The position numbers were made by a program, and so were the translations under genes. From a virus: DNA of 23,676 bases. Below, piece after piece: positions 2,405 through 23,450 of this stretch. The stretch spans positions 1 through 23,676 of the IMG/VR virus record IMGVR_UViG_3300007538_000190; one strand, given 5' to 3'. Positions within the stretch are counted from its first letter, which is position 1. Each line of letters starts with the position of its first letter. Below the pieces are notes generated by a model. The model had not been told where the DNA came from, searched no databases, and worked only from the letters and a program-made list of their open reading frames with translations.

Positions 2405-2415
2405 TATCGTTTTTT

Positions 2416-3234: not shown

Positions 3235-3260
3235 CTTAATAATGTAGGATTCGTATAAGG

Positions 3261-3267
3261 TATTTAG
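3261..3267 (-). promoter_or_regulatory. Late-promoter-like element for the gp4-gp53 operon
   Basis: On the minus strand this reads CTAAATA, one base from the start codon of the plus-strand gene. It mirrors the element at 3228-3234: each motif lies beside the other gene's start codon and each would give a leader of about 28 bases. This supports divergent late transcription from one short region. Confidence 0.65.
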
Positions 3268-3268
3268 G

Positions 3269-4024: not shown

Positions 4025-4056
4025 TAAATAATCATACCTGAATTGTATCAAACAGT

Positions 4057-4779
4057 ATGCCTTTACCCAAGATTTCGACACCGACATATGAGTTGGAATT
4101 GCCTTCAAATGGAAAATTAATTAAATATCGTCCATTTCTTGTAAAAGAAGAAAAAATTCTTATCATGGCACTGGAGAGTGAAGATCTTAAACAAATTTCA
4201 AATGCAATTAAAACTGTTATATCAGATTGTATTATTACAAGAGGAATTAAAGTAGATCAGTTATCAACTTTTGATATTGAATATTTGTTTTTAAATGTTC
4301 GTGCAAAATCCGTAGGAGAATCTGTAGAAGTAAGTGTAACATGTCCAGATGATGGAGAAACACAATTACAAGTTGAAATTGATATTGATTTAATTAAGGT
4401 TCAAAAGAATCCTAATCATAGTAATATTATTAAATTGGATGATAATCTTTCGGTTAAAATGAAATATCCATCTTTAAATCAATTTGTTGAAAGTAATTTT
4501 GAAGTTGATAATAAAAATGAACAAGTTGATAAGTCTATTCAAGTGATAGCATCTTGCATTGGTCAAGTATTTACTGATGAAGAATCTTGGGATGCTTCTG
4601 ATTGTAGTAAGAAAGAATTGAATGATTTCATCGAGCAAATGAATACCAAACAATTTAAGAAAATTGAAGAATTCTTTAACACGATGCCAAAATTATCACA
4701 TACAATTAATGTGAAGAATCCAAAGACAGGTGTGGAGTCAGAAGTTGTATTGGAAGGGTTAGCAAGTTTTTTCAGTTAG
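4057..4779 (+). CDS. gp26: Baseplate hub / tail assembly chaperone-like protein gp26
   Basis: The 240-residue protein belongs to the T4 gp26/gp51 baseplate family: a short N-terminal strand (YELELPSNGKLIKYRPFLVKEEK), a helical stretch with ISNAIKTVISDCI, a FDIEYLFLNVRAKSVGE motif, a beta-rich middle and a helical end (FIEQMNTKQFKKIEEFFNTMPKL). T4 gp26 has 208 and gp51 has 249 residues, so length does not decide between them. The gene sits just before the tape-measure-like gene, the usual place of a tail assembly chaperone. Its last codons hold a TTTTTTC slippery heptamer in the correct phase, leading into an open -1 frame. A late promoter of its own is not clear; it probably shares the operon transcript. 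The initiation site is weak, with no strong Shine-Dalgarno before the ATG. Confidence 0.85.
   Translation: MPLPKISTPTYELELPSNGKLIKYRPFLVKEEKILIMALESEDLKQISNAIKTVISDCIITRGIKVDQLSTFDIEYLFLNVRAKSVGESVEVSVTCPDDGETQLQVEIDIDLIKVQKNPNHSNIIKLDDNLSVKMKYPSLNQFVESNFEVDNKNEQVDKSIQVIASCIGQVFTDEESWDASDCSKKELNDFIEQMNTKQFKKIEEFFNTMPKLSHTINVKNPKTGVESEVVLEGLASFFS
4752..4773 (+). promoter_or_regulatory. Probable programmed -1 frameshift site in gp26
   Basis: The heptamer T TTT TTC at 4767-4773 is aligned with the gp26 frame (AGT TTT TTC AGT TAG) as a classic X XXY YYZ slippery site, two codons before the stop. A Shine-Dalgarno-like GGAAGGG at 4752-4758 ends 8 bases upstream, near the spacing at which such sequences stimulate -1 slippage in bacteria. 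AGCGCT and CTCATGAG follow but I see no convincing stable stem or pseudoknot. After slippage the frame stays open for 62 codons. Confidence 0.7.
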
Positions 4780-4961
4780 CGCTGGCTCATGAGAGTTTGG
4801 AAAATTATTACAAAACAAACTTTGCCTTGATTCAGCACCATAAATATTCATTGACGGAACTAGAAAATATGATACCTTGGGAAAGAGAAATATATGTTTC
4901 TCTTTTGCAACAATATATTGAGGAAGAAAATTTAAAACAGCAAAAACAGAGTGGTATTTAG
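4773..4961 (+). CDS. Frameshift extension of gp26 (tail assembly chaperone second domain)
   Basis: This is the -1 frame read after slippage in gp26; the fusion would have 239 + 62 = 301 residues. The extension starts QLALAHESLENYY and includes HHKYSLTELENMIPWEREIY then LLLQQYIEEEN, a compact helical domain with a well-formed MIPWERxIY motif and typical protein composition. No ATG, GTG or ribosome binding site is present near its beginning (the only internal ATG is 33 codons in, within the motif), so independent translation is unlikely. It overlaps the first 11 bases of the tape-measure-like gene. The arrangement matches the G/GT and E/E' chaperone pairs placed before tape measures in lambda and P2, where a minority of ribosomes shift. 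The alternative is a decayed or separately started short gene. Confidence 0.65.
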   Translation, partial: QLALAHESLENYYKTNFALIQHHKYSLTELENMIPWEREIYVSLLQQYIEEENLKQQKQSGI

Positions 4962-6720: not shown

Positions 6721-6723
6721 TAA

Positions 6724-8235
6724 ATGGAAAGCGTCGAGAATTTAAAACTTAATGTTAGTAATATAAAAAGTGTATTGACTACATCAAATAAAAATTTGAA
6801 ACAGTTACAAATTAAAAAGACAAGTATATTAAGGAAACAAATACAAGGCGAAAAAAGATTTGAAAGAGAGAAAAAAATAGAGACCCCTAGAATTCCTGGA
6901 TCCGAACTTGCCAAAGGAATTGTAAGAAAAATTGCAAGTCCTGTTATGGGAGTATTTGATAGAATAATGGGATTTTTCAGTGCTATATTACTTGGATTTG
7001 TAGTTAATAATTTGCCAAAAATAATTGCAGAGTTGACTCCTATTTTTGAAACTATGAAACCAATATATGAAGGTTTTATGAAAGGATTGGGATTTGTGAT
7101 AAATGGAATAGGATTTTTGTATAATTCTGTTGCGCCATTATTTTTTAATGAAAATGAAGCACGAAATAATATTAAAACTGCAGAAGATACACTCAAATTA
7201 ATTGATAAGGATTTAGATGAAGGTTTTGAATTGTCAAAAGATAATGATAATACTGAATCTGAGACAACTCAAACTCAAGAAGTAAATAATTATACGGATC
7301 CTTCTACGCCTGTCATTCAACAACAAACTCAAGTAAAACCGGAAATACAAAAAAGAAATACTGGTGGTTTAGTAAACAAAAGACAAAATGCGAATCTTCC
7401 ACCAAGAAGAAATAATTATGAAAATGCAAAAACAAATCCTTTAAGGTTATTTGGAAAGGTAACAGAGCAAAACAGCGAAAATGTAAATCTATTTGAAAAA
7501 AATAATGATAAATTAGAAGAAATTGCAAAATTATTAAAATCATCAGAAAGGAAAAAATCTATTACTACTAATGATAATAAACCGGCAACTGATAATAAAG
7601 TTGTAATTAGTGATGGTAAAATTACCGGACAAATTGTTGGAAGAGTTGGGCATAGTGGGTATACGATCCCAGAAGGTCCAGAGGGTTCTCACATTCACAT
7701 TGAAACTGGAAGGGGGGAAGGAGGAGCGGGAGGAGAGATTCCTTCATCAGTTTTGAGTAATATTATTGTTGGTGGTAAACCATTGTCTGATTGGCCTCAA
7801 ACTTCAACAATTGGTGATGGTAGAGGGCACCGTGGATTGGATTATGGTATTCCGAAGGGGACACCAATTACTCTTAAAGGGGGATTGAAACTTGTTGATT
7901 ATGATACGGTTAGAGATCCAAGTGGATATGGAAATAATATAGTTATTGTGGATAAATATGGAAATTATTATTTAATTGCTCACTTATCCAGTGGACCAGA
8001 GAAATCTAAAGATGGTGAAGGTGGGCAGTTAAATAATAGTATAACATCTAGACAAATAATTCCTTTAAGTGACGAAATTAAGAAACAAATTATTATAGTT
8101 CCTGTAGAAAAGTTAGTGCCTATTGAAACTCCAGTTCCAGTTACTGGCAATTCTACAAAGGTCTATAGACCTGGTGGAGGAAAAGATTATGGTGGACGAC
8201 CTTTAAATCCCTGGCAAACGAGAGGACCTCAATAA
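6724..8235 (+). CDS. Tail protein with tape-measure-like segment and circularly permuted M23 endopeptidase
   Basis: The 503-residue protein has four parts. Residues 1-60 are charged and probably coiled coil. Residues 72-145 are hydrophobic and match the preceding gene product (SPVMGVFDRIMGFFSAILLG against TPVKGFFQKILDFFGAIITG). Residues ~150-300 are an N/D/Q-rich linker with a GGLV motif. Residues ~302-430 resemble an M23 (LytM-type) zinc endopeptidase. All expected residues are present: H369 and D373 in GHRGLDYG, H420 in YYLIAHLS, and H323/H325 in GSHIHIE. The order is changed: the HxH strand, normally last, precedes the HxxxD strand. Such an enzyme would cut peptidoglycan cross-links during DNA injection. 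The gene begins 3 bases after its neighbour and its stop overlaps the next start (TAATG). The family call is good; activity is inferred. Confidence 0.78.
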   Translation: MESVENLKLNVSNIKSVLTTSNKNLKQLQIKKTSILRKQIQGEKRFEREKKIETPRIPGSELAKGIVRKIASPVMGVFDRIMGFFSAILLGFVVNNLPKIIAELTPIFETMKPIYEGFMKGLGFVINGIGFLYNSVAPLFFNENEARNNIKTAEDTLKLIDKDLDEGFELSKDNDNTESETTQTQEVNNYTDPSTPVIQQQTQVKPEIQKRNTGGLVNKRQNANLPPRRNNYENAKTNPLRLFGKVTEQNSENVNLFEKNNDKLEEIAKLLKSSERKKSITTNDNKPATDNKVVISDGKITGQIVGRVGHSGYTIPEGPEGSHIHIETGRGEGGAGGEIPSSVLSNIIVGGKPLSDWPQTSTIGDGRGHRGLDYGIPKGTPITLKGGLKLVDYDTVRDPSGYGNNIVIVDKYGNYYLIAHLSSGPEKSKDGEGGQLNNSITSRQIIPLSDEIKKQIIIVPVEKLVPIETPVPVTGNSTKVYRPGGGKDYGGRPLNPWQTRGPQ

Positions 8236-9551
8236 TGAATGCAGCACAAGCAAGTATATTTGAAGAATTTATAATTACATCTGATGACGGAAGTAATTCT
8301 GTAAATCTTTATGATGGTCAGATAAGAATTATTAGTTTTGATTACTTTGAATCTATATTATCACCGTGCATTACTGGCACAATTATAATTTCTAGTGGAT
8401 CTGATGCTGCTGTATCGAGGGAAGATCCCCAAAATAGAGTAGGAAGTATATTATCGCATTTACCTCTTCGTGCAGGATCAATAATATCGACAAAAATACG
8501 CACAAAAAATGGAGTATTGAATTTTTCTGGAGATGATTATAAAGTTTTATATGTGACAAAGGTTGTTCCTCTAATCCAAGATTCTAATTCAGAAACAATA
8601 TCTATAAAGTTTACATCTAAAATTGGATGGTTAAATGAAACTACCAGAATTACACGATCATTTAATGGAAAAATTACCAAATCTGTAGAATCTATATTAA
8701 CAAAAGAATTGGGTATAAAATCTAATAAAATTTTTATTGAAGAAGCAATCAATAGTCTCACATTTACTGGAATGAGAAAGAGACCATTTGATTTATTAAT
8801 AGGACTTTTATTAAAACAATCTATACCCCCCAATACAGTAAATCCTGGTTATTTTTGTTATGAAACAAAGAGTGGATTTAATTATGTTTCTATTGATACT
8901 TTGATAAATCGAGAGGAATTTAAAATTCCTTATGAATATAATGGCAAAAATATATCATCTTTTGAAACTAAAGATGACAGTGCTGATTTTAAGGTAGCAA
9001 CATTTTCGACAGAAAAAGATCAAGATTTGTTGATGCAAATTAGATCTGGAATGTATGCTACAAAAAATTTATTTTTCAATCCACTAACTTTTAAATTTAC
9101 CGAAATTGACATATCTGTGATAACAAATTCAAAGTTTTCTTCATTGGGTAAAAAACAAAAACTTCCAAGAATTTTAGATCAAGATTTCAATGAGGGGAAA
9201 AAATATCATCGAGTTCAGTCTGCTATCCTAGATATAGGAAGTAATACAGAAGAAAAAACTCAAAATAATAATCCAGAACTTTACTATGCAGCAGGAACTA
9301 CTAGATATAATGCATTATTTTCTCAAATTCATAATGTAACAATTCCATCAAATATTTTACTTGAAGCTGGAGATTCGATTATTTTAAATATTGAAAGTAT
9401 ATCTAATGATAAGGTGCAAGGTGTTGATCAAGTTAAAAGTGGTAAATATATAATTAGGGGAATAAGGCATCATTTTACTCCTAAAGTATCTACTACTGGA
9501 TTAAAACTTATTCGCGATTCTTATGGATTACATTTTAGTAAGAGCAAATAA
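8235..9551 (+). CDS. Baseplate hub protein, gp27-like
   Basis: The 438-residue protein (T4 gp27: 391) follows the gp27 pattern: an N-terminal barrel with an ITGTIIISSG strand near 50, an LPLRAGSIISTKIRTKNG stretch near 75-92 as in hub proteins, an exchange of strands up to IKFTSKIGWLNETTRITRSF, then a helix-rich insertion starting KITKSVESILTKELGI (~150) and a second barrel ending in GDSIILNIES and KSGKYIIRGIRHHF near 380-415. In T4, a gp27 trimer forms the hub ring that adapts six-fold tube to three-fold spike and holds gp5. The next gene encodes a gp5-like OB-fold, the expected partner. The start ATG overlaps the upstream stop (TAATG), and the same overlap links it to the downstream gene. 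The fold call rests on pattern and context; overall identity to T4 gp27 is low. Confidence 0.72.
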   Translation: MNAAQASIFEEFIITSDDGSNSVNLYDGQIRIISFDYFESILSPCITGTIIISSGSDAAVSREDPQNRVGSILSHLPLRAGSIISTKIRTKNGVLNFSGDDYKVLYVTKVVPLIQDSNSETISIKFTSKIGWLNETTRITRSFNGKITKSVESILTKELGIKSNKIFIEEAINSLTFTGMRKRPFDLLIGLLLKQSIPPNTVNPGYFCYETKSGFNYVSIDTLINREEFKIPYEYNGKNISSFETKDDSADFKVATFSTEKDQDLLMQIRSGMYATKNLFFNPLTFKFTEIDISVITNSKFSSLGKKQKLPRILDQDFNEGKKYHRVQSAILDIGSNTEEKTQNNNPELYYAAGTTRYNALFSQIHNVTIPSNILLEAGDSIILNIESISNDKVQGVDQVKSGKYIIRGIRHHFTPKVSTTGLKLIRDSYGLHFSKSK

Positions 9552-10063
9552 TGGAAGGACTAAATTCGGCACAATTTAATTTTTATGGTTTGGGGACAAA
9601 TGAGTGGATAGGTATGATATTGCCCTTTGAATCCCAAAAAGATCAATCTACGGGAAAGAAAGGATTTGGTTTTCGTTATCGAGTGGCTATTATGGGTTAT
9701 CATCCACTTGATAATAGTATAACTGATGAAGAAATTACTTATGCCATAACTGGATTCTCACCTGCTGATGGCGGCGGCGGTGGATCGTGTTATAAAACAT
9801 CTAAATTGACTCAAGGAGATGTTGTTTTGGGTAAATTTTTAGATGGTGATAATAAACAATTGCCAATTATATTGCATGTTTTATGTAGAACGTCTGATAT
9901 ACAATATGGATATGGATCTGGTAGATTTGATCCAAAAACTGGATTTGTTGGAAGTAGAAAAAAGACATCATTAACAAAAAATCAAGAAACATGTGAACAA
10001 AAAGGAATATGCACGCCAAGACTAATACCTGGGAATGGGAAACAAGGTAGAACATCTCCATAA
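9551..10063 (+). CDS. Baseplate central spike OB-fold protein, gp5 N-domain-like
   Basis: The 170-residue protein contains a beta-barrel pattern: WIGMILPFESQ at ~18-28, FRYRVAIMGYHP at ~41-52, a Gly-rich FSPADGGGGGS loop, then LTQGDVVLGKFLDGDNKQLP and a final IILHVL strand. T4 gp5 has the same sequence of features in its N-terminal OB-fold (GRVRVRCVG, then LVPGTQVFGYFLDE, PVVLGSI), which binds gp27. Here the T4 gp5 lysozyme domain and the C-terminal needle are both absent. A separate downstream gene has a needle-like pattern, and lytic capacity appears to sit in the M23-containing tail protein. The C-terminal ~50 residues are polar and Cys/Lys-rich, with no known motif. The start overlaps the upstream stop codon (TAATG). 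Confidence 0.72.
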   Translation: MEGLNSAQFNFYGLGTNEWIGMILPFESQKDQSTGKKGFGFRYRVAIMGYHPLDNSITDEEITYAITGFSPADGGGGGSCYKTSKLTQGDVVLGKFLDGDNKQLPIILHVLCRTSDIQYGYGSGRFDPKTGFVGSRKKTSLTKNQETCEQKGICTPRLIPGNGKQGRTSP

Positions 10064-10066
10064 ATA
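10059..10066 (+). promoter_or_regulatory. Possible late promoter, T4-like CATAAATA
   Basis: CATAAATA, one mismatch from T4 TATAAATA, overlaps the stop codon of the OB-fold gene and lies 13 bases before the next ATG. The leader would be only about 7 bases. AT-rich sequence makes chance occurrence likely, so this is a weak call. Confidence 0.3.
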
Positions 10067-10079
10067 ATTCAAAAAATAT

Positions 10080-11570
10080 ATGTCAGTTTGTGCAGATCCT
10101 ATCAGTAATACATCTGGTCATGTAGTAATTCTTCCAGATCCTTGTAAAGATAATACCTTTGCGAAGGCAGAAGCATATCTGGAAAACTTTTTTGCTTTGG
10201 TAACAAAACCACTTGATTCATCCTCAAGTTTAGATCAAGAATTGAAAAAAACCGTGAAACTTCTTTCTATTGGTATGAAAGGTTTTGTAAATTCTGTTGT
10301 GGGAAGATTTCAAGATGAATTGATTGAAAGAATAAAAGGTGGACTTGCAGGACTGGAAAATGCAGTTAGATCTTCATATAAAGGAAATGAATTATTCAAA
10401 GCTCTTGATGAATTAGCAAAAAAACAAGGCGCTCAAATTGATCCAGTTGATAATCTGTTTAAGGCACTTGCTTGTTTGGCAAATAAGGTTACGGATGCCG
10501 CAGAAAAAATATTCACTGATTTGCTATCACAAGCAGTAAAAAATGTATTGAATGTCCCTATTTGTGCAGTTGAGCAAATATTGGGTGCATTTACTAATAA
10601 GATGATAGATATCATTGAGAGCACCGTTTCACCAATATTGGAACCGATTAAGAATGCATTAGAATTTGTTTTTGATGTAAGAGATTTTCTTGTTGGTGTA
10701 GTGAAAACATTGAGAAAGGTTGAAAATCTTTTAAATTGTAATGAGAAGAAAAAGTGTCCTCCATCTACAAAATATAAAATCAATCAAGGATTGTTGAGAG
10801 ATAGGGGAGAAGGAGAGCAGAAAGACGCCTTTGATAGAATATTTGCAAAAGGAGCACTGTCAAGAGGTGCTGCAAATCTTGCAAATGATTTTGAAAATCA
10901 ATATGGATCATGGTCTATATTTGGCGAGACCCTAGAAAATGCTGATCCAAATTCGGGTTGTTATACTGGAAATGTTGTCAGTTGTGGCACACCAAATGTA
11001 GAATTTTTTGGTGGTGATGGTGCAGGAGCATTTGGAAGAGTAATACTTGGCAATATTATTAATGAAGTTGATAGTGAAGGTGTAATTGATTCTGCACAAA
11101 GGACTGCAAGTATTGTTGGTGTAGAAATTCAAGATCCCGGAAGTGGATATACAACTCCACCAATTGTATCTTTTACTGATGCATGTGATAAGGGATATGG
11201 TGCATATGGCAGAGCAAACATAGATACAAATCCTAGTTCTCCAACTTATGGTCAAGTTACTTCTATAAGTATTATTAGTAAAGGAGAAAATTACCCAACG
11301 GAAGGTCTTATTGAAGATCCATTATACATTGAAGATATTGTAATTGAAAATCCCGGATCTGGATACTCTGAAGGTGATTCTGCTCAAGGGATTAAATTAA
11401 CAATTCGTGATGGTCAAATTGTTGACACTGAAATTGAAAACTTAGGATACAATGGATTGCCTGACCTAAATATCAACAGTAACACTGGGTTTGGAGCTGT
11501 GCTAAGACCAATAATGGCAGTTGTTCCGCCACAGAGAGAAGTTATTCAAGTTATAGATTGTGTGAGGTAA
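10080..11570 (+). CDS. Virion structural protein with PGSGY repeats
   Basis: The 496-residue protein has two halves. Residues ~25-230 are predicted helical, with long amphipathic stretches (SLDQELKKTVKLLSIGMKGF, then AVKNVLNVPICAVEQILGAF) and scattered cysteines, as in parts that line or plug the hub. Residues ~340-490 hold beta repeats of a type frequent in cyanophage structural proteins: IQDPGSGYTTPPIVSF near 350, SISIISKGENYPTEG near 395 and IENPGSGYSEGD near 422. I recognise no enzyme motif. The gene lies between the OB-fold spike protein and the needle-like protein, so a place at the baseplate centre or tip is likely. No T4 gene is an obvious counterpart. The call as structural is firm by context; the exact role is unknown. 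Confidence 0.75.
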   Translation: MSVCADPISNTSGHVVILPDPCKDNTFAKAEAYLENFFALVTKPLDSSSSLDQELKKTVKLLSIGMKGFVNSVVGRFQDELIERIKGGLAGLENAVRSSYKGNELFKALDELAKKQGAQIDPVDNLFKALACLANKVTDAAEKIFTDLLSQAVKNVLNVPICAVEQILGAFTNKMIDIIESTVSPILEPIKNALEFVFDVRDFLVGVVKTLRKVENLLNCNEKKKCPPSTKYKINQGLLRDRGEGEQKDAFDRIFAKGALSRGAANLANDFENQYGSWSIFGETLENADPNSGCYTGNVVSCGTPNVEFFGGDGAGAFGRVILGNIINEVDSEGVIDSAQRTASIVGVEIQDPGSGYTTPPIVSFTDACDKGYGAYGRANIDTNPSSPTYGQVTSISIISKGENYPTEGLIEDPLYIEDIVIENPGSGYSEGDSAQGIKLTIRDGQIVDTEIENLGYNGLPDLNINSNTGFGAVLRPIMAVVPPQREVIQVIDCVR

Positions 11571-11573
11571 CAT

Positions 11574-12104
11574 ATGGCAAATTCTGATAGTTTATATCGA
11601 GAGGTTTGTAGTCCAAAATTAGTTATTGAGTCGAATTCTGAAGAGCAAACTACTGCCGGTAAATGTGCCTTTTCTATTAAAAGTGAAAACGAGTCTGGTA
11701 TTCGTTGCTCACAAGGATTGTATGAAAATGGGATGTTTCATCAAGGAACAGAAGGACGGTTTGAAATAGAGTGTGGAGATAAAAATAGAGATGGACAACC
11801 AGATTTTACTTTAATTGCACATAATGGCAATATTCATTTTAATGCTGATAGTGGATCATTCGTTGTAGGTGCAGAAACAATTACTTTAAAGGCAACAGAT
11901 GAAATTGTAATAGATGCTCCTTCAATTAGAATTGGAAATAATGAAGGGCAAACAAATAAAATTGAACTTCATGCACAAAATTTGATTCCTGTAGAGAATG
12001 GAAAAATAAAAAAATTTGAATTGAAAGAAGCACTAATGTCTTCAAGCACAGTTGCATCTTTTAAAGGGTCATTAGCTTCTGGAAATCCAAAATTAAAAGC
12101 ATAA
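11574..12104 (+). CDS. Needle-like beta-helical spike protein (gp5 C-domain/VgrG-like)
   Basis: The 176-residue protein has a central run of short alternating strands, GNIHFNADSGSFVVGAETIT, then LKATDEIVIDAPSIRIG, at ~82-125. Such strand-turn repeats are typical of the intertwined trimeric beta-helix of T4 gp5C and VgrG needles. The preceding part (QGLYENGMFHQGTEGRFEIECGDKNRDG) also has polar turns between strands. The C-terminal 50 residues are Lys/Ser-rich and not recognised. I see no PAAR motif for a metal-bound tip. A GAGGT site before the ATG is a good ribosome binding site. Together with the OB-fold gene it appears to supply what a single gp5 chain does in T4. The alternative is a general beta-solenoid structural protein. 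Confidence 0.6.
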   Translation: MANSDSLYREVCSPKLVIESNSEEQTTAGKCAFSIKSENESGIRCSQGLYENGMFHQGTEGRFEIECGDKNRDGQPDFTLIAHNGNIHFNADSGSFVVGAETITLKATDEIVIDAPSIRIGNNEGQTNKIELHAQNLIPVENGKIKKFELKEALMSSSTVASFKGSLASGNPKLKA

Positions 12105-12107
12105 AAA

Positions 12108-15100
12108 ATGGGAATACCAAGAATAAATCCAGATTTTTCTCAATTAGGTAATTCGATATTTGAAACCGTATATATTTACGATAAACTTTATGCGAATGAA
12201 ATTGTTGTAGATAACACAATTTTTACTGGTGATGTTAATCTTGATGTTTTACGAGTAAGAAAATATTTTAGTGTAGGTACTAAGGAAAAACTTTTAAATG
12301 TTAATGATAATACTAAAAGAATTGGAATTAACACATTAAATCCTGATAGATCAATTGTTGCGATTGGTAATGTTGGAATAGGAGGAACGGTTGATATTAA
12401 TGGTGGTAGGGTAGGTATTAATTCTGATTATATTGATCCAACAGGCAATAGAGTTCTTGAAGTTGGTGGAAGTATAAAGATCACAAAATACATTTATGAT
12501 CAATTTGATAAAAGAGGTAATAATACAAACGTTCTTTCTGTTGATGCAAATGGAATTTTCTGGAAAGAATTAAGTACAGAAGTTCAGGAAGGTGTCTTTT
12601 TACAAGAAGAAGGTGTTGAAGTAGGACAAGGGGTTTCTTTCACAAATATTAATTTCGTGGAGAGAAACAGTCTTGGTATTTTGACCGAGACTCTGGGAAT
12701 TACATCTTCCGGAATTTTAGGACTTGCCACTATATTTTCCAATGATTATTGGGGAAATGCAATAGGTGGTGACAAGGCAGTTGCCGATAATAACATTTAT
12801 AGAATGACCAATGTTGGTATTTTTACCAATAATCCATTAGTTGCACTACAGATTGGTAAAAATACTTCTGGTGTGGTTGCCATTACATCGGAGGGTAATC
12901 TTGGAATAGGAACTACAAATCCAAGATTTCCTTTGGATGTTTATGGCGGTGTCTCTATTAGTGGTGTAACAACTCTTGCATCTGATGGAGGTATTACAAC
13001 AACCGGTGGAGACTTATTTGTTGATAATGGTCTTTCTGTAGGAGGTGCTGCTACTATAGGAGGTGCTGCTACTGTAGGTGGTGAATTATTTGTTAAAGAT
13101 GATTTATCTGTTTTTGGTGGAGATATAAAAACTAATCAATCCACATTTAACTTATTAAACACCACTGTAACCACATTAAATCTTGGTGGTGCTGCAACTT
13201 CTATTGAGATAGGTAAGAATGATGCTACGGGCATTATAAGCATAAATTCTACGAAGGATTCAACCAGTAAAACAACAGGCGCATTAGTTGTTGATGGTGG
13301 TGTAGGAATTGCAAAAAGATTAACCGTAGATAATGTAAGTATTGCTAATACAGTTGGTGTTGGAAGTACTGCATATTTTGAGGATGAAGTTGATATTGAT
13401 GGCACTCTAATACTAAATTCTTTTATACAGGATGTTAATGATTCTACTGGTGGCGATAAAGATTATCGTCTTGCTGCAGTTGGAAGTGGTGTTTCTTGGA
13501 GACCTTCTGGTGTTCAAACAAAGAGAACTATTTGGGTTTCGGAGAGTGGTAACGATGCCAATAGTGGATTACTTGAGGGTGATGCAAAAAGAACAGTTGG
13601 TGGTGCAGCAGCAATAGCAGAAGCGAGTGATACAATTGTTATAAGACCCGGAACATATGATGAAAACAATCCAATTGGATTAAGAACTGACGTATCTGTT
13701 ACAGGTCAAGATTTGAGATTGGTTACAATCAGACCTCAAAATTTGATGCGTGATATTTTTCATGTAAGAAGAGGATGTCTCATTGAGAATTTGAATTTTG
13801 CCTGTAAAAATAATGATGGAGATCCAAATGACAATGGAGTAAGTGTTGCAAATACTGGAGGAGGAGCAGTTGCATTTCCTCCAACACAAACAGACATTGA
13901 TGCCGGGACTGCATATCAAGCGGTAAGTGGATTTACTGATGTTGGACCAGCAACAGAAGGTCCTACGGGAAGATGGAGAAGTCCATATATTAGAAATTGC
14001 ACAAACTTCATGACCAAAAGTATTGGCATGAAGATTGATGGTAATCATGCCACAGCATCAAGTGATGGTGCTAATTTGAAATCAATGGTTTGTGATTCAT
14101 TTACTCAATACAATGAAGCAGGTATTGGAGTATCACTTACCAATGAAGCATATGCCCAATTAGTTTCTATATTTACAATTAATAATGATATAGGAATTTA
14201 TGCTGATACTGGTGCTCAGTGTGATTTGACTAATTCTAATTCTTCCTTTGGAAATTATGGATTGGTTGCAGTTGGATTGGGAGCAACTCAATACACTGGT
14301 TTTGTTACTTCTAATACTGCTGGAGTTGCTTATGATTTTAATAACACCGATATTATAGTTGGCACTGCTGTTACCGACAGATCCAATGTATATCAAAGAC
14401 CTTTTGATGGGCAGGCAGTTTGGTTTGCGATTGATCTTGCAAACTATCCAGATGCAACTCCACCAAGTGGAAGCACAATACTTCCATCTCCTATGAGAGA
14501 AGTTGAGAGAATTGATTTAATACCTAATGCTACTGGTAACTCTGGATTTAGTGCTGCTTCTCCTCCTAATGTGATTATAGAAGATTTTGATGATACTTTA
14601 GTTGAACCTAAAGGTCCTCAATCTATTGCTGCTCAAGCAACTGCAACTGTAAGTGCAGGAGGATCCATTACCCAAATTAATTTAATTAGTAATGGTAGAA
14701 ATTATCTTCCAACTCAAAATATAGTTGTTAGTATTAATGGAAATACTGGAATTGCGACTGCTATCATGAAACCTATCTACTATACAGTTTCTGAAGCGGG
14801 CGATTTCAATTCTGTGGGTATGACGACTATAACCTTTAATGAATTTATACCATATGAATTATTTGAAGGAGATCCAATTTATTTTGCAAGAATAAGTCGT
14901 ATTCTTACATCTTCACATTCATTTGAATACATTGGTACTGGGACCACTATAAATAGTGCGTTACCCTTTGAGGGTGCAGTTCCAATCAAAGCTAATGAAG
15001 TTGATGCCAGAGATGGAGCACAAATTCCGTTTACTAGCACCGACCAAAAAGGAAATTTTGATATAGGAGAGGGGATACAAATCGACCAAACAACGTCAAC

Positions 15101-15170
15101 AATTAGAGGTAGAGATTTTAGTAGAGCAGTTCAGGCAGAAATTACACCATTAATACTTGCATTAAATTAA
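12108..15170 (+). CDS. Large tail/baseplate structural protein with right-handed beta-helix region
   Basis: The 1020-residue protein starts MGIPRINPDFSQLGNSIFET. Residues ~60-440 carry fibre-type motifs repeated along the chain (RIGINTLNPD, LGIGTTNPRFPLDVYG, GALVVDGGVGIAKRLTVDN), which are also found in the 2176-residue fibre. Around 475-600 lies a pectate-lyase-like start: IWVSESGNDANSGLLEGDAK, TIVIRPGTYDENNPI, then LRLVTIRPQN and CLIENLNF, the usual sign of a parallel beta-helix. The C-terminus has a conserved-looking segment (QKGNFDIGEGIQIDQ, IRGRDFSRAVQAEITPL). No catalytic residues for polysaccharide cleavage can be identified, so it may be a structural adhesin or may bind surface glycans. 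It follows the needle gene by 3 bases and precedes two further structural genes. No Shine-Dalgarno is evident. Confidence 0.75.
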   Translation: MGIPRINPDFSQLGNSIFETVYIYDKLYANEIVVDNTIFTGDVNLDVLRVRKYFSVGTKEKLLNVNDNTKRIGINTLNPDRSIVAIGNVGIGGTVDINGGRVGINSDYIDPTGNRVLEVGGSIKITKYIYDQFDKRGNNTNVLSVDANGIFWKELSTEVQEGVFLQEEGVEVGQGVSFTNINFVERNSLGILTETLGITSSGILGLATIFSNDYWGNAIGGDKAVADNNIYRMTNVGIFTNNPLVALQIGKNTSGVVAITSEGNLGIGTTNPRFPLDVYGGVSISGVTTLASDGGITTTGGDLFVDNGLSVGGAATIGGAATVGGELFVKDDLSVFGGDIKTNQSTFNLLNTTVTTLNLGGAATSIEIGKNDATGIISINSTKDSTSKTTGALVVDGGVGIAKRLTVDNVSIANTVGVGSTAYFEDEVDIDGTLILNSFIQDVNDSTGGDKDYRLAAVGSGVSWRPSGVQTKRTIWVSESGNDANSGLLEGDAKRTVGGAAAIAEASDTIVIRPGTYDENNPIGLRTDVSVTGQDLRLVTIRPQNLMRDIFHVRRGCLIENLNFACKNNDGDPNDNGVSVANTGGGAVAFPPTQTDIDAGTAYQAVSGFTDVGPATEGPTGRWRSPYIRNCTNFMTKSIGMKIDGNHATASSDGANLKSMVCDSFTQYNEAGIGVSLTNEAYAQLVSIFTINNDIGIYADTGAQCDLTNSNSSFGNYGLVAVGLGATQYTGFVTSNTAGVAYDFNNTDIIVGTAVTDRSNVYQRPFDGQAVWFAIDLANYPDATPPSGSTILPSPMREVERIDLIPNATGNSGFSAASPPNVIIEDFDDTLVEPKGPQSIAAQATATVSAGGSITQINLISNGRNYLPTQNIVVSINGNTGIATAIMKPIYYTVSEAGDFNSVGMTTITFNEFIPYELFEGDPIYFARISRILTSSHSFEYIGTGTTINSALPFEGAVPIKANEVDARDGAQIPFTSTDQKGNFDIGEGIQIDQTTSTIRGRDFSRAVQAEITPLILALN
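13041..13076 (+). repeat. 18-bp tandem duplication
   Basis: The unit ggaggtgctgctactata occurs twice in tandem, at 13041-13058 and 13059-13076, with one difference (ata to gta). It encodes GGAATI GGAATV in the shaft region of the 1020-residue protein. Confidence 0.85.
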
Positions 15171-15171
15171 T

Positions 15172-15843
15172 ATGGCAGTAGCACCATTAAATAAATTTAT
15201 AACTGTAGCAGTACCGGTTGCACCTGGAATTAATACTGTATATACAACTCCTGTTGGTGTAAGTGCTATTGTATTATATGCCGGAGTTTCAAATGTTGGT
15301 TTAGGAACGACTACTTCATATCCAACAGTAACGTTTACGCACCAAAGAAAATCCACGGGAACAAGAACATTTGGTAATACCAGAGATACGAGAATTGTAA
15401 AAGATATTGAGGTGCTACCGAATGATACATTGTTTCTTATTGATGGAAGATTAGTCTTAGAAAGAACTGCTGCTGTATCGGATTCATTGACTATTATTAG
15501 TGATCAGCATGGTGTCAGAGATATTCAGGGTGTTGAATATCATGCTCCTAATGGGGTAACTACTGTAACTACCACAACTCCTCATGGATTCCAAGTTGGT
15601 GATGAGATTACTATGGCAGATATTCAATTCACTTGTACGGGAGATGGATACGGAATAACCACAACGTTTTTCCCCTCACCACAGAGAAGTTTTACTGTAG
15701 ATGTATCAAATACTCCAACAACTTTTGAAGTAAATTCTGGTAAGAGTGTTGGCATTGCTCACAATCATGTTAGTGGAACAGGAAAAGTAGCACCCTTAAG
15801 ATTGGAATTAACCCTCAGTATTCTTGAAAATAGTCTTGCATAA
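15172..15843 (+). CDS. Tail-fibre-associated structural protein
   Basis: The 223-residue protein has two visible parts. Residues ~1-110 are beta-rich (LNKFITVAVPVAPGINTVYT, IVLYAGVSNVG, VKDIEVLPNDTLFLIDGRLV), like small receptor-side or capping domains. Residues ~128-215 contain TTTTPHGFQVGDEITMAD, a Gly/Phe-rich loop GYGITTTFFPSPQRSF, and TFEVNSGKSVGIAHNHVSG; a module of this kind recurs in cyanophage structural proteins. There is no enzyme motif. It lies one base after the beta-helix gene and two bases before the giant fibre gene, so the three are probably made together and assemble together, perhaps as a connector. The function is not known. Confidence 0.7.
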   Translation: MAVAPLNKFITVAVPVAPGINTVYTTPVGVSAIVLYAGVSNVGLGTTTSYPTVTFTHQRKSTGTRTFGNTRDTRIVKDIEVLPNDTLFLIDGRLVLERTAAVSDSLTIISDQHGVRDIQGVEYHAPNGVTTVTTTTPHGFQVGDEITMADIQFTCTGDGYGITTTFFPSPQRSFTVDVSNTPTTFEVNSGKSVGIAHNHVSGTGKVAPLRLELTLSILENSLA

Positions 15844-15845
15844 CA

Positions 15846-18800
15846 ATGGCAAAATATTTAAGCGGAAGAGTAAAAAGAAAAGAACAATCCAAAGTAGCAA
15901 TTTCTACGGATCGCTACCGTTATCTTGGACTTAATGAAACTGAACCAAATTTAGGTGATCCTCTTTCCGGGACATTTCAAGACACTCCACCTGCTGGTAC
16001 AAGATATCAAATAGTTTCCGTTGAAGGATATCCTGGAGAAAGATATTGGATTCCTGTTGAGGGTGGAATCATTCCAGGATCTATTACTGTCTATGATGAA
16101 TCTACTAAACTTGTTGGTAATATTAGTAGTATAACTCAACTCAATTTTATTGGTGCTGCTATAACTGCAACATCAGATTCATTTAAAGAAACAACATTAA
16201 CTTTAAGTGGCAATCATAGTTTTTCTGTTGGTTTAGGTATTACACAGGGTAACAATAATGTTACTGGTTTTGTAAAATATTCTACAACAACAGTTGGATA
16301 TGTTACTGTCACTAATGTTGAGGGATCGTTTGCTCAAAATGCAAGTGATGAAATTTATGAGGATGGAGTAACCACTGGATTAACCGTAGATTCTTTATCT
16401 TCGATTATTGAGACTGGAGTTAAAGCAGACATAACTGTTTCTCCACAATTCTTTTCTGAAAATAAAGAATTAATATTTAATGATAATGGGGAATTTAATG
16501 GTGCTAGTGTTTATTGGGATAAGTCTAATACACGATTAGGTATTAATAGTAGTGATCCTGCACATACTTTAGATGTTACAGGAGATATTGATGTAAGTGG
16601 TAGCATTAAAGTTGGAGCAACTATCTATGATAGTGATGGTGATCCAGGAACTGACGGGCAAATTCTTGCGAAGGGAGCAGGAAATCCTGGGACAATAGAT
16701 TGGGTTCGTTTGGAATCTATTATTACTGGTGCTGGTGGAACAATTGGTAATATTCAGTTTCATGGCACTACTGGATTGGTTCAGGGTGATGATGAATTAA
16801 ATTTCAATCCTTATAATGAGTTTATTGGTATTGGTACTAATGATCCGGCACAGAAGTTTCAAGTTGGAGTAGATGGAAAAAGATATACAACAAAGAAATT
16901 AACTTTAGATAGTGCTATAGGTGATAATTATAGTGCAGGAGATTTAGTTCAATTGAGAACGGCAGCTTCTCCATTTGGACTGCAGGATATATTTGGAACT
17001 CTTGTATATGATGTACCTTCTGCTGGAACAGCACTAACGGTTAGAAATAGTAATTACGAAACAAAAGGTACTCAATGGAGTTCTTTTACTGGTAATGGGT
17101 ATAGAATATACTTTAATAACACTCTTTTAGCTACTGGCAGGTATATAACTTCTGTTGCAAATGATGCCACCATACCAGAAACTACCTACGAGGGAGATGA
17201 TGTCTTTGTAGTTACTAGCACTGGTGATGTTGGTATTGGCACAGTAAATCCAAGGACAAAGAGAGATTCTACGACAGTTAATTTAGATGTTGTCGGTGAT
17301 GTTTTATTTAAAGGTGATAATAACTATGATCTTCACTGGGACAAGAGTGCTTATAGTTTAATACTTGATGATAATGCCAAGTTTGCTGCAGGCACTGACT
17401 CTGATTTAGAAATATATCATAATGGCACTACTGGATATATTGATAATAAGACTGGACATTTATATATTAGAAATGCTGGGTCAAATATTAATTCAAACAT
17501 TTATATTCAGGCAAGAAGTGGAGAAAATAGTATTATTTGTAACGATGATGCTGGCATAGATCTTTATTATAATAATAGTAGAAAAGCATATACAGATATC
17601 AGTGGTTTTCGTATAGATGGTAGATTATATGTTGATCACAGCACATCAGAGTTTCATGGAGATGTAAGATTTGATGGAAATACTGCTGGTCGTGATATTT
17701 ACTTTGATGTGAGTGAAAACTCTTTATATGCTTATGATAATGCAGAATTTCGTGTAGGGACAACTGCCGACCTACGAATTTACCATGATTCTACACTCAC
17801 CAAAACATATGTTGGGTTAGATTCTAGTGGTGGTAAGACATTAGACTTCGTTTCTTTTGATAATAATCTTGGCATAAGCACTGCCATGAGAGTGACACAT
17901 GTTAATAGTGGAGATAATTATAATACTTATGTAAATCTATACTATAATGGAGTTGAAAAATTAGAAGTAACGGAAAATGGTATTGATGTAACGGGTCATG
18001 TAGAAACCGATACATTAAATGTTTCTTCTGCATCAACTATTTCTAATATTAAGATTGGTGGTCTTGGTGGAAATCTTTCTAATACAATAGATACAACTTC
18101 TGGAAATTTAATTATTAATGCTCAAGGTGGTTCTAATACAATTGTTACTGATAGCGAACTGCAAATTAATAGTACTGAACCAACCACTGGTAATAATGAT
18201 GGTGCTTTAATTGTTGCTGGTGGTGTTCATATCAGAAGTGATTTGATATTATGTAATGATCCTGATATCGTGGATACTATTGACCCCGTTAAAGTTGGTA
18301 TTGCAACAAGAACTCCTGTTGATAGACTTCAAATAGGATCACGGAACGAATTTATACCAGTTGTAAATACAAATACTGGAGATCTTGCTGCTCCTGTTGG
18401 TGGTTTGGGTACCAATGAAATTACTGGAATCACAATATCTGGATCTGGTATTGTATTGGGACAAGAAGTAAAATCTGGATTCCATACAGTTGGCACGAAG
18501 ATTTCAAATATTGTTGGAAATACAATTATTGTTGATACTTATGCAACTAATACTGTAGCACAAACTAATGTTCCTATTACTTTTGGTATAAGAAATGATA
18601 GTGCTGTTATTGCTATTGGACAAACCGGTTCTGTTGGAATAGGCACTACAAGTGCCGAAGCAAAATTAGATGTTCGTGGTAATTTACAAGTTACTGGAAT
18701 TGCATCAGTCAGTGAAACTATAAAAGTTGGTGCGGCTGTAACGATTTCATCAAGTGGAGATACATTCATATCTGGTATCACATCTGTAGGCACTGGTGTG

Positions 18801-21800
18801 ACCATTACTCCATCTAATGGAGGTATTGCCGTCACCGGAATTATAACAGCAACTGGTGGATTTATTGGCACAGTTAATAGTAGTGATATTGTTGGTGATA
18901 TAACAGCAACTAATATTAATGTTACCGAAGAAAGTACTGATGCCGAGTGTAATATAGTTTTTGTAACCGCATCTAATGGAATTCTTCCACCAAAAACTAA
19001 TGCCAACTTAACTTATGATTCAAGTACTGGAAAATTGCAATCTGCTAGTTTTGAGGGTGATGGATCTTTACTGACTGGTGTTATTGGTGTAGGCACTGGC
19101 GTTGAACTTCAATCAAATGGAACTTCGGTTGGAGCTGCAGCAACAATTAATTTTAGTGGAGGATTTAATGTATTACTTTCTACTTCAAGTGGTGTTGCGA
19201 CAGTAACTCCAACAGCAACGGATAGAAGTGTTTTCTCTCATTATTCTGATTATGCAAGTCATAGTGAAACATCAAATTATGCATACGGTATTGTAGGTAT
19301 TGCAAACACTTCTTACAATGAAGTAGGAATACTTACTGCAAATTCATCTTCTGCAGATAGTTTTGGATGGTCAGTAGCAACCAGTGCTGATGGCAAGACT
19401 ATTGTTGTTGGAGATCGCTTTGGTGATGGTAATGCAACAGATTCAGGCGCAGTTTATGTCTTTGATCGTGAAGGAAATACCTATAGTCAAGTAGGTGTCT
19501 TGACAGGTTCTTATTCTACCGATAATTATGATAATTTTGGACAAGCAGTAGCAACCAGTGCCGATGGTAAGACCATTGTTGTTGGTGCTTTTGATGATGA
19601 AACTTCTGGCACTACTGGTTATGGTCTTGTTTATGTTTATGATCGTGTTGGAAATGACTTTAATGAAGTAGCAATTTTAACTGGTTCTTATGCCACCGAA
19701 TCTTTTGATTACTTTGGATGGTCAGTAGCAACCAGTGCCGATGGTAATACTATTATTGTTGGTGCTTATGGTGATGAAACTTCTGGCACTACTGGTCATG
19801 GTCTTGTTTATGTTTATGATCGTGTTGGAAATGACTTTAATGAAGTAGCAATTTTAACAGCATCTGATCAAGGTGCAGGTGATTCTTTTGGACAGGATGT
19901 TGCATGTAGTGTTGATGGTAAGACTATTGTTGTTGGTGCTGGTGGTCATGACGATCTTTCGGGACATACATCTTCAGGCGCAGTTTATGTCTTTGATCGT
20001 GTTGGAGATGATTTTAATGAAGTAGGAATTTTAACAGCATTTGACAGTAATAATTACTACTTTTTTGGAAATGAAGTAGCAACTAGTGCTGATGGCAAAA
20101 CTATTTTTGTTGGTAGAAGTTCTATTTCTGCTAATCAACCTGGTGCTGTTTATGTTTATGATCGTGTTGAAAATGACTTTAATCAAGTAGGAATTTTAAC
20201 AGGTTTTTATGCCGATGATGATGATCAATTTGGGATCTCTGTGGCATGTAGTGCCGATGGTAAGACGATTATTGTAGGAGCTCAAAGTGATGAGTATCCT
20301 GGTTCTGGCAATGGTTCTGGTCTCGTTTATGTTTTTAATCGTCAGGGAAACAACTTTAATGAAGTAGGAATTCTCACCGGATCTTATGCTTCTAATACTG
20401 GTGATTATTTTGGACATTCTGTAGCAACCAGTGCCGATGGTAAGACCATTATCGTTGGTGCTTACAATGATGAGATTAATAGTGAACAAGGTCTTGTTTA
20501 TGTTTTCGATCAAAATGTAAATACAAAATCACTTTTAAGGACTATAGATGAAAAAAATATAATTATAGAATCTAATTTAACAGTAACGGGTGATATTAAA
20601 GGAACTGCAGATAATGCCGATAGAAGTATTTTCTCTTCCTATTCCGATTATGCAAGTCATAGTGAAACATCAAATGGATCTTATAATCTTGTAGGTATTG
20701 GATCAACTTATATTGAAGTAGGTGCTATAGAACTTGATAATCCTAACTCTAACGATGAATTTGGACACACAGTAGCAACCAGTGCTGATGGTAAGACCAT
20801 TATCGTTGGTGCTCCCGATCATGATACTAATTCATTATCAAATGTAGGTGCAGTTTATGTCTTTGATCGTGAAGGAAATACTTATAGTCAAGTAGGTTTC
20901 TTTACTGGTTCTTATGCTACCAGTAGCAGCGATTATTTTGGACAAGAAATTGCATGTAGTGCCGATGGTAAAACCATAGTTGTTGGCAACCAATATAGTG
21001 AATTACCAGGATCGGAGTCGAATAGTGGACTTGTTTATGTCTTTGATCGTGTTGGAAATGATTTTAATGAAGTCGGTATCTTAACCGGTTCTTATGCTTC
21101 TCAAAATAGTGATAATTTTGGATCGTCAGTAGCAACCAGTGCCGATGGTAAGACTATTGTTGTTGGTGCTCTTCTGGATGAGAAGGGTGTTGATAGTGTT
21201 GATGGCGGAGGTGTAGTTTATGTCTTTGATCGTGTTGGAAATGATTTTAATGAAGTAGGTATTCTAACAGTATCAAGTGGTGCATTTGTTTTTGATTATT
21301 TTGGATATTCTGTAGCAACCAGTGCCGATGGTAAGACTATTGCTGTTGGTGCGTATGGTGATGAAAGTGGCGTAACAGTAACTGATGTAGGTGCAATTTA
21401 TGTCTTTGATCGTGTTGGAAATGATTTTAATCAAGTAGGTATTCTAACAGCATCTTACGATACCGTGCGCTATGACTTTGGACGCGAAGTAGCAATCAGT
21501 GCCGATGGTAAGACTATTATTGGTAGTGCTTATTATGAGTCTGGGACCGGTGATCCTACTAAAGGCACTGTTCATGTCTTTGATCGTGTTGGAAATGATT
21601 TTAATGAAGTAGGTATTCTAACAGCAGGAACTGAATATGCTGATAATCATGATTATTTTGGATGGTCAGTTGCATGTAGTGCCGATGGTAAGACTATTTT
21701 TGTTGGTGCTCCCAATGATGAATATTCATCTACTTTTACTACTGGCATTGTTCATGTTTTTAATCGTCAGGGAAATAACTTTAATAAAGTAGGTATTATA

Positions 21801-22376
21801 ACCGGTTCTTATGCTACTAATCTTGCTGATAAATTTGGATACGCAGTGGCATGTAGTGCAGATGGTAAGTCTGTTATTGCTTCTGCTCTCAATGATGAGA
21901 TTGGAGGTACTAGTGCTGCCGGTGTCGTTTATGTCTTCGATCAAACAACAGTTGCCAGAGATGCAATTACGGCAACAGATACTGGTGTTTTAATTACCGG
22001 AGATCTCAATGTAACTGGTGATATTACTGCATTCTATACTTCTGATGAAAGATTAAAGGATAATATCACTCCAATTGATGATCCTTTGGCAAAGGTAATA
22101 TCAATTAGTGGTAACACATTCGATTGGAATCAAAATTCCAATAAGTCTGGTCATGATGTTGGTGTTATTGCACAAGAAATAAAAGAAATTCTGCCAGAAG
22201 CTGTTACTGAAAGAGATAATGGGTATCTTGCGGTTGATTATTATAAAGTAATTCCTCTCCTAATTGAGGCAATCAAGGAACTTTCTGAAGATAGAAATAT
22301 CATAACTTCTAAAAACGGAGTTAAGTATCGTTTCGTTGTTGACGATGATGGAAACCTATCAACTGAGAAGGTCTAG
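15846..22376 (+). CDS. Giant tail fibre with twin FG-GAP propellers and S74 chaperone
   Basis: The 2176-residue protein begins with a probable attachment segment (MAKYLSGRVKRKEQS, then RYQIVSVEGYPGERYWIPV). Residues ~200-1130 are fibre shaft with recurring VGIGTTxPxxxLDVxG-type motifs and GALIVAGGVHI. Two arrays of seven repeats follow, at ~1160-1555 and ~1625-2035. Each repeat has FGxSVATSADGKTIVVGA then GxVYVFDRVGNDFNEVGILT, the FG-GAP type that forms seven-bladed propellers. The C-terminal 111 residues are an S74 intramolecular chaperone: SDERLKDNI with S2066 and K2071 spaced as the cleaving Ser-Lys pair, then GVIAQEIKEILPEAV and DYYKVIPLLIEAIKEL. The chaperone trimerises the fibre and then cuts itself off. 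Fibre role and S74 are firm; receptor binding by the propellers is inferred. Confidence 0.9.
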   Translation: MAKYLSGRVKRKEQSKVAISTDRYRYLGLNETEPNLGDPLSGTFQDTPPAGTRYQIVSVEGYPGERYWIPVEGGIIPGSITVYDESTKLVGNISSITQLNFIGAAITATSDSFKETTLTLSGNHSFSVGLGITQGNNNVTGFVKYSTTTVGYVTVTNVEGSFAQNASDEIYEDGVTTGLTVDSLSSIIETGVKADITVSPQFFSENKELIFNDNGEFNGASVYWDKSNTRLGINSSDPAHTLDVTGDIDVSGSIKVGATIYDSDGDPGTDGQILAKGAGNPGTIDWVRLESIITGAGGTIGNIQFHGTTGLVQGDDELNFNPYNEFIGIGTNDPAQKFQVGVDGKRYTTKKLTLDSAIGDNYSAGDLVQLRTAASPFGLQDIFGTLVYDVPSAGTALTVRNSNYETKGTQWSSFTGNGYRIYFNNTLLATGRYITSVANDATIPETTYEGDDVFVVTSTGDVGIGTVNPRTKRDSTTVNLDVVGDVLFKGDNNYDLHWDKSAYSLILDDNAKFAAGTDSDLEIYHNGTTGYIDNKTGHLYIRNAGSNINSNIYIQARSGENSIICNDDAGIDLYYNNSRKAYTDISGFRIDGRLYVDHSTSEFHGDVRFDGNTAGRDIYFDVSENSLYAYDNAEFRVGTTADLRIYHDSTLTKTYVGLDSSGGKTLDFVSFDNNLGISTAMRVTHVNSGDNYNTYVNLYYNGVEKLEVTENGIDVTGHVETDTLNVSSASTISNIKIGGLGGNLSNTIDTTSGNLIINAQGGSNTIVTDSELQINSTEPTTGNNDGALIVAGGVHIRSDLILCNDPDIVDTIDPVKVGIATRTPVDRLQIGSRNEFIPVVNTNTGDLAAPVGGLGTNEITGITISGSGIVLGQEVKSGFHTVGTKISNIVGNTIIVDTYATNTVAQTNVPITFGIRNDSAVIAIGQTGSVGIGTTSAEAKLDVRGNLQVTGIASVSETIKVGAAVTISSSGDTFISGITSVGTGVTITPSNGGIAVTGIITATGGFIGTVNSSDIVGDITATNINVTEESTDAECNIVFVTASNGILPPKTNANLTYDSSTGKLQSASFEGDGSLLTGVIGVGTGVELQSNGTSVGAAATINFSGGFNVLLSTSSGVATVTPTATDRSVFSHYSDYASHSETSNYAYGIVGIANTSYNEVGILTANSSSADSFGWSVATSADGKTIVVGDRFGDGNATDSGAVYVFDREGNTYSQVGVLTGSYSTDNYDNFGQAVATSADGKTIVVGAFDDETSGTTGYGLVYVYDRVGNDFNEVAILTGSYATESFDYFGWSVATSADGNTIIVGAYGDETSGTTGHGLVYVYDRVGNDFNEVAILTASDQGAGDSFGQDVACSVDGKTIVVGAGGHDDLSGHTSSGAVYVFDRVGDDFNEVGILTAFDSNNYYFFGNEVATSADGKTIFVGRSSISANQPGAVYVYDRVENDFNQVGILTGFYADDDDQFGISVACSADGKTIIVGAQSDEYPGSGNGSGLVYVFNRQGNNFNEVGILTGSYASNTGDYFGHSVATSADGKTIIVGAYNDEINSEQGLVYVFDQNVNTKSLLRTIDEKNIIIESNLTVTGDIKGTADNADRSIFSSYSDYASHSETSNGSYNLVGIGSTYIEVGAIELDNPNSNDEFGHTVATSADGKTIIVGAPDHDTNSLSNVGAVYVFDREGNTYSQVGFFTGSYATSSSDYFGQEIACSADGKTIVVGNQYSELPGSESNSGLVYVFDRVGNDFNEVGILTGSYASQNSDNFGSSVATSADGKTIVVGALLDEKGVDSVDGGGVVYVFDRVGNDFNEVGILTVSSGAFVFDYFGYSVATSADGKTIAVGAYGDESGVTVTDVGAIYVFDRVGNDFNQVGILTASYDTVRYDFGREVAISADGKTIIGSAYYESGTGDPTKGTVHVFDRVGNDFNEVGILTAGTEYADNHDYFGWSVACSADGKTIFVGAPNDEYSSTFTTGIVHVFNRQGNNFNKVGIITGSYATNLADKFGYAVACSADGKSVIASALNDEIGGTSAAGVVYVFDQTTVARDAITATDTGVLITGDLNVTGDITAFYTSDERLKDNITPIDDPLAKVISISGNTFDWNQNSNKSGHDVGVIAQEIKEILPEAVTERDNGYLAVDYYKVIPLLIEAIKELSEDRNIITSKNGVKYRFVVDDDGNLSTEKV
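19221..20618 (+). repeat. First copy of linker plus seven-blade propeller module
   Basis: The copy starts with a DRSVFSHYSDYASHSETSN linker and contains seven blade cores, beginning at 19374, 19548, 19725, 19899, 20076, 20241 and 20421 (period 165-180 bases). The next module starts exactly 1398 bases (466 codons) later. Confidence 0.9.
20619..21960 (+). repeat. Second copy of linker plus seven-blade propeller module
   Basis: The copy starts with DRSIFSSYSDYASHSETSN and contains seven blade cores, beginning at 20772, 20949, 21129, 21312, 21489, 21669 and 21846. Both copies end with VYVFDQ. The end coordinate is approximate. Confidence 0.88.
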
Positions 22377-23006: not shown

Positions 23007-23450
23007 ATGTTTAAACTAATTTCAACTTGTAAGGGTTGTGGATGTGAAATTATTAATGAGAGAGAAACTAAGGGGCGCCTCAAAACTTGGTGTAGCGATA
23101 AATGTAGACATCAATGGCGTTATCAAAACGATCCAAAATACAAAACAAGTCAACAACAAAGAAATACCTATGATAGGCAAAAGAGAGTTGCCTATGAGAG
23201 AAAGTGGTCAGCAATACAATCAAAAGGTGGAAAGTGTCAACAATGTGGTGAAAGTAGACCCGCAATGCTATGCTTTCACCACAGAAACCCATCAGAGAAA
23301 AAAATTAGACTAGATTCTAGAAGATTTAGTAATACAAATCTTAAATTACTCCTAGAAGAAGTTGACAAATGCGACCTTCTATGTCATAATTGTCATCAAG
23401 AACTCCACAACGCTGATGGGTGGAAAGAGTTCTTTAATAAGCAGGTTTAG
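23007..23450 (+). CDS. HNH homing-type endonuclease
   Basis: The 147-residue protein has an N-terminal zinc ribbon (C8-C11 with C29-C33, CKGCGCEI...WCSDKC) and a C-terminal HNH domain: KCQQCGES with C77-C80, CFHHRNPSEKK with H91-H92, LLLEEVDKCDLLCHNCHQEL with C126-C129, and H134. The linker between the two is basic and polar (QQQRNTYDRQKR...YERK), suitable for DNA contact. Such free-standing enzymes cut phage genomes lacking the gene and so spread by repair. It lies between two tRNA genes, and its last three codons, including TAG, overlap the acceptor and position 8-10 of the next tRNA. A late-type element and inverted repeats precede it, and no clear Shine-Dalgarno is visible, suggesting restrained expression. 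Confidence 0.9.
   Translation: MFKLISTCKGCGCEIINERETKGRLKTWCSDKCRHQWRYQNDPKYKTSQQQRNTYDRQKRVAYERKWSAIQSKGGKCQQCGESRPAMLCFHHRNPSEKKIRLDSRRFSNTNLKLLLEEVDKCDLLCHNCHQELHNADGWKEFFNKQV

Follow-up and report, generated by a model that had tools for sequence, protein, structure and literature searches.

Viral chains with several propellers, and trimers that combine a propeller with a Peptidase_S74 chaperone, are already known, and they are the background against which we describe a putative tail-fibre gene of the virus record IMGVR_UViG_3300007538_000190 that is predicted to carry two FG-GAP propellers in series ahead of S74. The 23,676-base window analysed is the entire record. The receptor-binding protein Gp45 of phage phi11 resembles what is predicted for the present fibre in being a homotrimeric tail protein with a propeller that is closed by its N-terminal strand and is a proposed glycan binder; it differs in having five blades and one propeller per chain, and the part of the source devoted to it mentions neither FG-GAP repeats nor S74 (PMC4901313). 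The same part of that source names the K1F and phi92 endosialidases as trimeric propellers on a stem, and PhiKZ gp131C as a seven-blade propeller (PMC4901313). The K1F endosialidase shares the S74 chaperone with the window's fibre (PMC10769870), and beta-propeller lectins occur in the fibres of extracellular contractile injection systems (PMC12923769).

The integrin alpha subunit is the classical comparison for the propeller itself. It has seven FG-GAP-type blades, with loops 4-1 and 2-3 on one face, and provides the top fold matches in the PDB, but identity is only about 15-19%, and the window encodes a viral fibre with two propellers in series. Moreover, PF01839 is not among the Pfam matches of the fibre, where the family found is FG-GAP_2 (PF14312), and no DxDxDG-type calcium-loop pattern is present in residues 1131-2040. 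A 2024 paper on a prasinovirus presents viral FG-GAP proteins as nearly unknown (PMC11467894), and a literature search joining FG-GAP, phage and tail fibre found none; in the loci gathered here FG-GAP proteins are common in viral contigs.

Organization of the fibre and of its propellers

The gene is divided as follows, all features being on the + strand (aa, amino acids):

15846..22376, + strand: predicted tail-fibre gene, 2176 codons open, syntenic with P-SSM2 PSSM2_023 (T4-GC 20 tail fibre)
15846..16190, + strand: conserved N-terminal anchor (aa 1-115), 56-58% identical to the P-SSM2 and AG-345-L05 fibres
16191..19220, + strand: putative shaft region (aa 116-1125), assigned from its position
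19221..19310, + strand: linker A (DRSVFSHYSDYASHSETSN...), with the motif SDYASHSETSN at 19245-19277
19311..20516, + strand: propeller A (aa 1156-1557), seven FG-GAP_2 blades, 28 strands
20517..20705, + strand: inter-propeller segment with linker B, motif at 20643-20675
20706..21947, + strand: propeller B (aa 1621-2034), seven FG-GAP_2 blades, 28 strands
21948..22040, + strand: short stalk (LITGDLNVTGDITAFYT), the predicted C-terminal end of the mature fibre, assigned from its sequence
22041..22376, + strand: Peptidase_S74 intramolecular chaperone (Pfam match), predicted to remove itself after trimer assembly

The fibre as a whole matches FG-GAP_2 with E=1.7e-90, and the per-repeat search yielded 14 matches, seven in 19320-20507 and seven in 20736-21938, of which 13 exceed the Pfam cut-off (the last repeat scores 22.2 bits vs 23). 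Counting of the anchor residues also gave 7+7, with blade units of 51-61 residues (56, 59, 59, 59, 55, 59 and 51 in array A; 58, 60, 61, 60, 58, 60 and 53 in array B), so that the two seven-repeat arrays described in the first-pass annotation are confirmed. Each array is preceded by SDYASHSETSN, the two copies lying 1398 nucleotides (466 codons) apart, as had also been noticed; the spacing is unchanged in those sister contigs, all from other metagenomes, for which a single stretch covers both linkers. Since only two linkers exist, the value has no extra meaning and tells only that both are in frame.

The placement of the arrays just before S74 was likewise correct, the PF13884 match (E=1.3e-15, aa 2066-2121) being directly downstream of them, with the SDxxxK motif present as SDERLK at aa 2066. 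The C-terminus that contains S74 is 74% identical to that of the S-SRM01 fibre, in which the stalk sequence VTGDITAFYT is also found.

Each array reads S4-(S1 S2 S3 S4)x6-S1 S2 S3, where S1 to S4 are the strands of a blade: the outer strand is absent from the last blade and is found at the array start, which is the arrangement by which propellers close. The AlphaFold2 model of module A has 28 strands in that order, with a mean predicted local distance difference test (pLDDT) value of 90.6 and a predicted template modelling (pTM) score of 0.91 (29 sequences), and that of module B also has 28 strands, with values mostly over 90. Module A and module B with S74 were folded as separate jobs, as every relative with one module had aligned to A. 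In the second model the ring is confident, while the preceding linker and the approximately 60 residues between ring and S74 are not; these may be the parts that need a trimer. Foldseek returned integrin alpha chains as the first PDB matches for both A and B (E about 1e-17 to 1e-18), the query template modelling (TM) score of module A being 0.63-0.71 against the best 20. At the level of sequence, a search of solved structures yielded no meaningful relative. Thus, strand count, prediction confidence and fold match together support the view, proposed earlier from the letters of the sequence, that each array is a closed ring of seven four-stranded blades in which the N-terminal strand would complete blade 7.

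Propellers and blade number in viral relatives

Fibre loci with a common N-terminal anchor were collected as the best 80 of 242 matches. Among them, blades were found in none of the 48 complete orthologous fibre genes from other contigs; an S74 domain is present in eight of the 48, and collagen-like shafts are common. The propellers therefore look like a modular addition to the fibre in the lineage of the window. Twelve sister contigs from other metagenomes have the identical layout of a 2176-residue, 14-blade gene. In sister contigs single-base differences from the window are clustered at 16791-17669 in the shaft, and the propeller region is nearly invariant.

The comparison with relatives by number of modules, which had been suggested at the outset, gave chains with none, one and several. 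The fibre of L033 (IMGVR_UViG_3300044701_003269) has a seven-blade FG-GAP_2 module with 44% identity and ends in S74, but its module is single and extra sequence lies between propeller and S74. Two or more seven-blade arrays per chain occur in L040, L041, L048, L049 and L042/L078, those of the first four being separated, unlike those of the window, by hundreds of residues or more. FG-GAP_2 arrays of about seven blades are also found in Vibrio phage nt-1, Cyanophages S-TIM5/S-TIM66 and uncultured Caudovirales phages, where a small protein of about 400-470 residues, not a long S74 fibre, carries a single array. In a library of predicted viral structures, some protein entries match with several fragments each, and a protein of a Bathycoccus virus, annotated as Peptidase S74, matches the propeller.

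To count blades, a profile was built up from the window's 14 blades and applied to 49 non-redundant, untruncated arrays of the fetched loci. Seven blades were found in 37 arrays (two of them the window's own), six in four, five in three, four in four and eight in one; several of the arrays with other than seven blades match the profile weakly or have interruptions. Among those that match well, L035 and L037 have six repeats and L038 has five, by which seven as an invariant number is ruled out. The case of L122 is uncertain: its six-blade propeller equals that of L124 minus exactly blade 5, and since L124 holds exact repeats of up to 77 base pairs (bp), the blade may have been lost by natural slippage or by collapse in assembly. 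It had been claimed that retention of seven blades shows selection for ring closure, and that arbitrary repeat numbers in relatives would speak against it. The prevalence of seven bears out the first statement in part, and relatives with six and five do exist; from these sequences seven blades are favoured, not obligatory, while single blades vary by several residues in length.

Two loci deserve separate mention. The 92.9-kilobase contig of L042/L078 (IMGVR_UViG_3300028384_000675) codes for chains of great length in which many FG-GAP arrays follow one another; several of the arrays have exactly seven blades, with the first and last blades split. L128 (IMGVR_UViG_3300030085_005130) has four separate propeller proteins within 10.4 kilobases, one of which is like the modules of the window.

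Origin of the two modules and of the linker

The first-pass annotation explained the pair by duplication of a 466-codon module. The bodies of A and B share 62.6% identity and group as sisters in a tree of 12 modules (ultrafast bootstrap, UFBoot, 99). The in-order pairing A1-B1 to A7-B7 is the best of the 5040 possible ones in DNA, and in protein it ranks in the top three. Matching blades are ~72% alike in DNA, the longest exact repeat between the arrays being 32 bp. As blade lengths differ and protein identity is 62-63%, the arrays are not a recent perfect duplicate; the comparison supports a duplicate pair that would be old and diverged.

The shared linker, on the other hand, is not particular to the duplication. 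Single propellers in L117, L120, L122, L123 and others, whose protein ends differ, stand behind YASHSETSN or a sequence close to it, and in other phage proteins the motif is partly written with different codons, so that it is kept as a protein motif. Furthermore, linker B (20576-20722, 147 nucleotides) is 93.9% identical in DNA to L120, as compared with 78.5% between linkers A and B over 107 nucleotides, and in the propeller of L120 the DNA identity falls to about 67-70%. Recombination at the linker boundary is the simplest reading. These observations rule out the linker as a private duplication scar; it would rather be a portable boundary common to other phages, at which propeller modules seem to be exchanged. 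Scans with the linker gave no match beyond the sister contigs and L120. In three sister contigs (L017, L018 and L019), linker B has the letters of linker A at four sites (20637-20645), and position 20587 is changed as well; the pattern reflects either gene conversion between the linkers or the ancestral state.

The same data raise the alternative that the two modules were taken up separately from a shared cyanophage pool rather than duplicated within this fibre. The near identity of linker B with L120 speaks for it, as do the similarity of A to L121 (64.8%), which is on a par with its similarity to B, and the presence in L120 of the blade-6 signature FNRQGNNFN of A and B. The sister position of A and B in the module tree and the in-order blade pairing in DNA argue against it, so that we regard separate uptake as unlikely, though it deserves serious attention, and prefer an old duplication. 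A profile search of genome contigs with the two-module alignment gave no relatives, and no cellular donor was found for this reason.

A variable face and the likely function

The geometry of a four-stranded meander brings loops 4-1 and 2-3 together on the same side and leaves loops 1-2 and 3-4 on the opposite one. When A is compared with B, loop identity is 48% (S4-S1) and 28% (S2-S3) on the first face, and 94% (loops 1-2) and 83% (loops 3-4) on the opposite one; for the S2-S3 loops the mean over 66 module pairs is 30%. The ratio of nonsynonymous to synonymous differences (pN/pS) is 1.01 on the variable face vs 0.13 on the opposite face for A vs B, and 0.92 vs 0.12 for eight modules (ranges, about 0.8-1.1 and 0.04-0.13, respectively). 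Over all pairs, synonymous divergence is similar on both faces (0.46 and 0.41), which places the contrast at the protein level. The best reading of the pattern is that the variable face may be the ligand-binding face.

Within the S74 family, Bd3182 self-cleaves at the S of SDxxxK (PMC10769870). By analogy, the mature chain is predicted to be cut at S2066, in which case propeller B would end ~31 residues from the mature end, and S74 also suggests a trimer, hence six rings per fibre. The chaperone would trimerize the fibre and then cut itself off. In each propeller, all seven blades would contribute their S4-S1 and S2-S3 loops to a variable face that binds a ligand on the host surface, and the opposite face would be a conserved scaffold. 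With two such faces in every chain, each diverged from the other, avidity would be higher or more kinds of ligand could be recognised. Overall, the gene probably encodes a tail or baseplate fibre of a cyanomyovirus whose tip consists of duplicate seven-blade FG-GAP_2 propellers followed by S74, the propellers acting as adhesion domains.

Three points weigh against this picture. The variability of the loops could result from relaxed constraint and alignment error rather than from binding. When only the blade core is considered in protein, 411 of the 5040 pairings equal the in-order one, so that the in-register signal comes partly from the ends of the blade units. Finally, a search of a phage collection gave no isolate closely matching the window.

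It is also conceivable that the propellers serve only as spacers or as bulky collars close to the tip of the fibre, with another part of the virion contacting the receptor. The arrays are indeed in series with shaft-like LTVTGDI segments, and the persistence of orthologues without propellers makes them dispensable for the fibre in general. However, the ~31 residues beyond propeller B after the predicted cleavage leave no other tip domain, and one-sided variability (pN/pS about 1 vs 0.1) is not expected of a pure spacer. Selection leaves one face free and keeps the other frozen, and for this reason binding is favoured over spacing, which we consider improbable; most likely the propellers would bind a receptor and so grip the host cell.

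An enzymatic function is still harder to sustain. The propellers of the K1F and phi92 endosialidases are sialidases, one per chain, and differ in this from the window's fibre. That the propellers of phage endosialidases are trimeric and borne on a stem (PMC4901313, in the part cited above) and that K1F carries S74 (PMC10769870) would fit a glycan-cleaving activity, but fold and sequence point to integrin-type FG-GAP propellers rather than to sialidases, and the loops of the variable face, the S2-S3 ones above all, are too divergent for a common catalytic set, which makes enzymes of this kind very unlikely. An assembly artefact as the source of the second array is barely credible: repeats are difficult for short reads, and the whole-blade difference between L122 and L124 may be one such case, but the 14-blade gene recurs in the 12 sister contigs, and the arrays have diverged too far in DNA, with too short an exact repeat.

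Gene neighbourhood

The window runs from the end of gp32 through gp53, the tube cap, gp4, gp26, gp51 and the hub genes to three fibre genes, an order that matches the tail genes of Prochlorococcus phage P-SSM2 at 2018-20746. The propeller-bearing fibre is the third fibre gene, at the position of PSSM2_023, its likeness to the latter being confined to the first ~115 residues (56%). The closest named DNA matches are cyanomyoviruses, and the window is probably from a P-SSM2-like marine cyanomyovirus with gene order of the Kyanoviridae type. At 9551-11570 the baseplate hub/lysozyme position is occupied by two open reading frames (170 and 496 residues), where the P-SSM2 annotation has a single gene of 2259 bases. 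Just downstream of the fibre gene is a free-standing HNH endonuclease gene (23007-23450; PHROG matches).

Concluding remarks

What is unusual here is the presence of two closely spaced sister FG-GAP_2 rings directly before S74 in a cyanophage fibre, an arrangement that is uncommon, not unique. A doubtful, though possible, extension is that linker-bounded FG-GAP_2 propellers are exchangeable cassettes among otherwise unrelated cyanophage fibres, and that the two stacked here, with binding faces that evolve separately, make a natural bispecific or high-avidity adhesin with its specificity in the loops of the 14 blades. To our knowledge, host recognition by marine cyanophages is poorly resolved at the protein level. 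The fibre offers a candidate binding domain with a predicted binding face and a clear division between a frozen scaffold and free loops; natural comparisons are at hand in fibres with zero, one or two modules, and the common, DNA-conserved linker is an apparent site at which propeller modules are exchanged.

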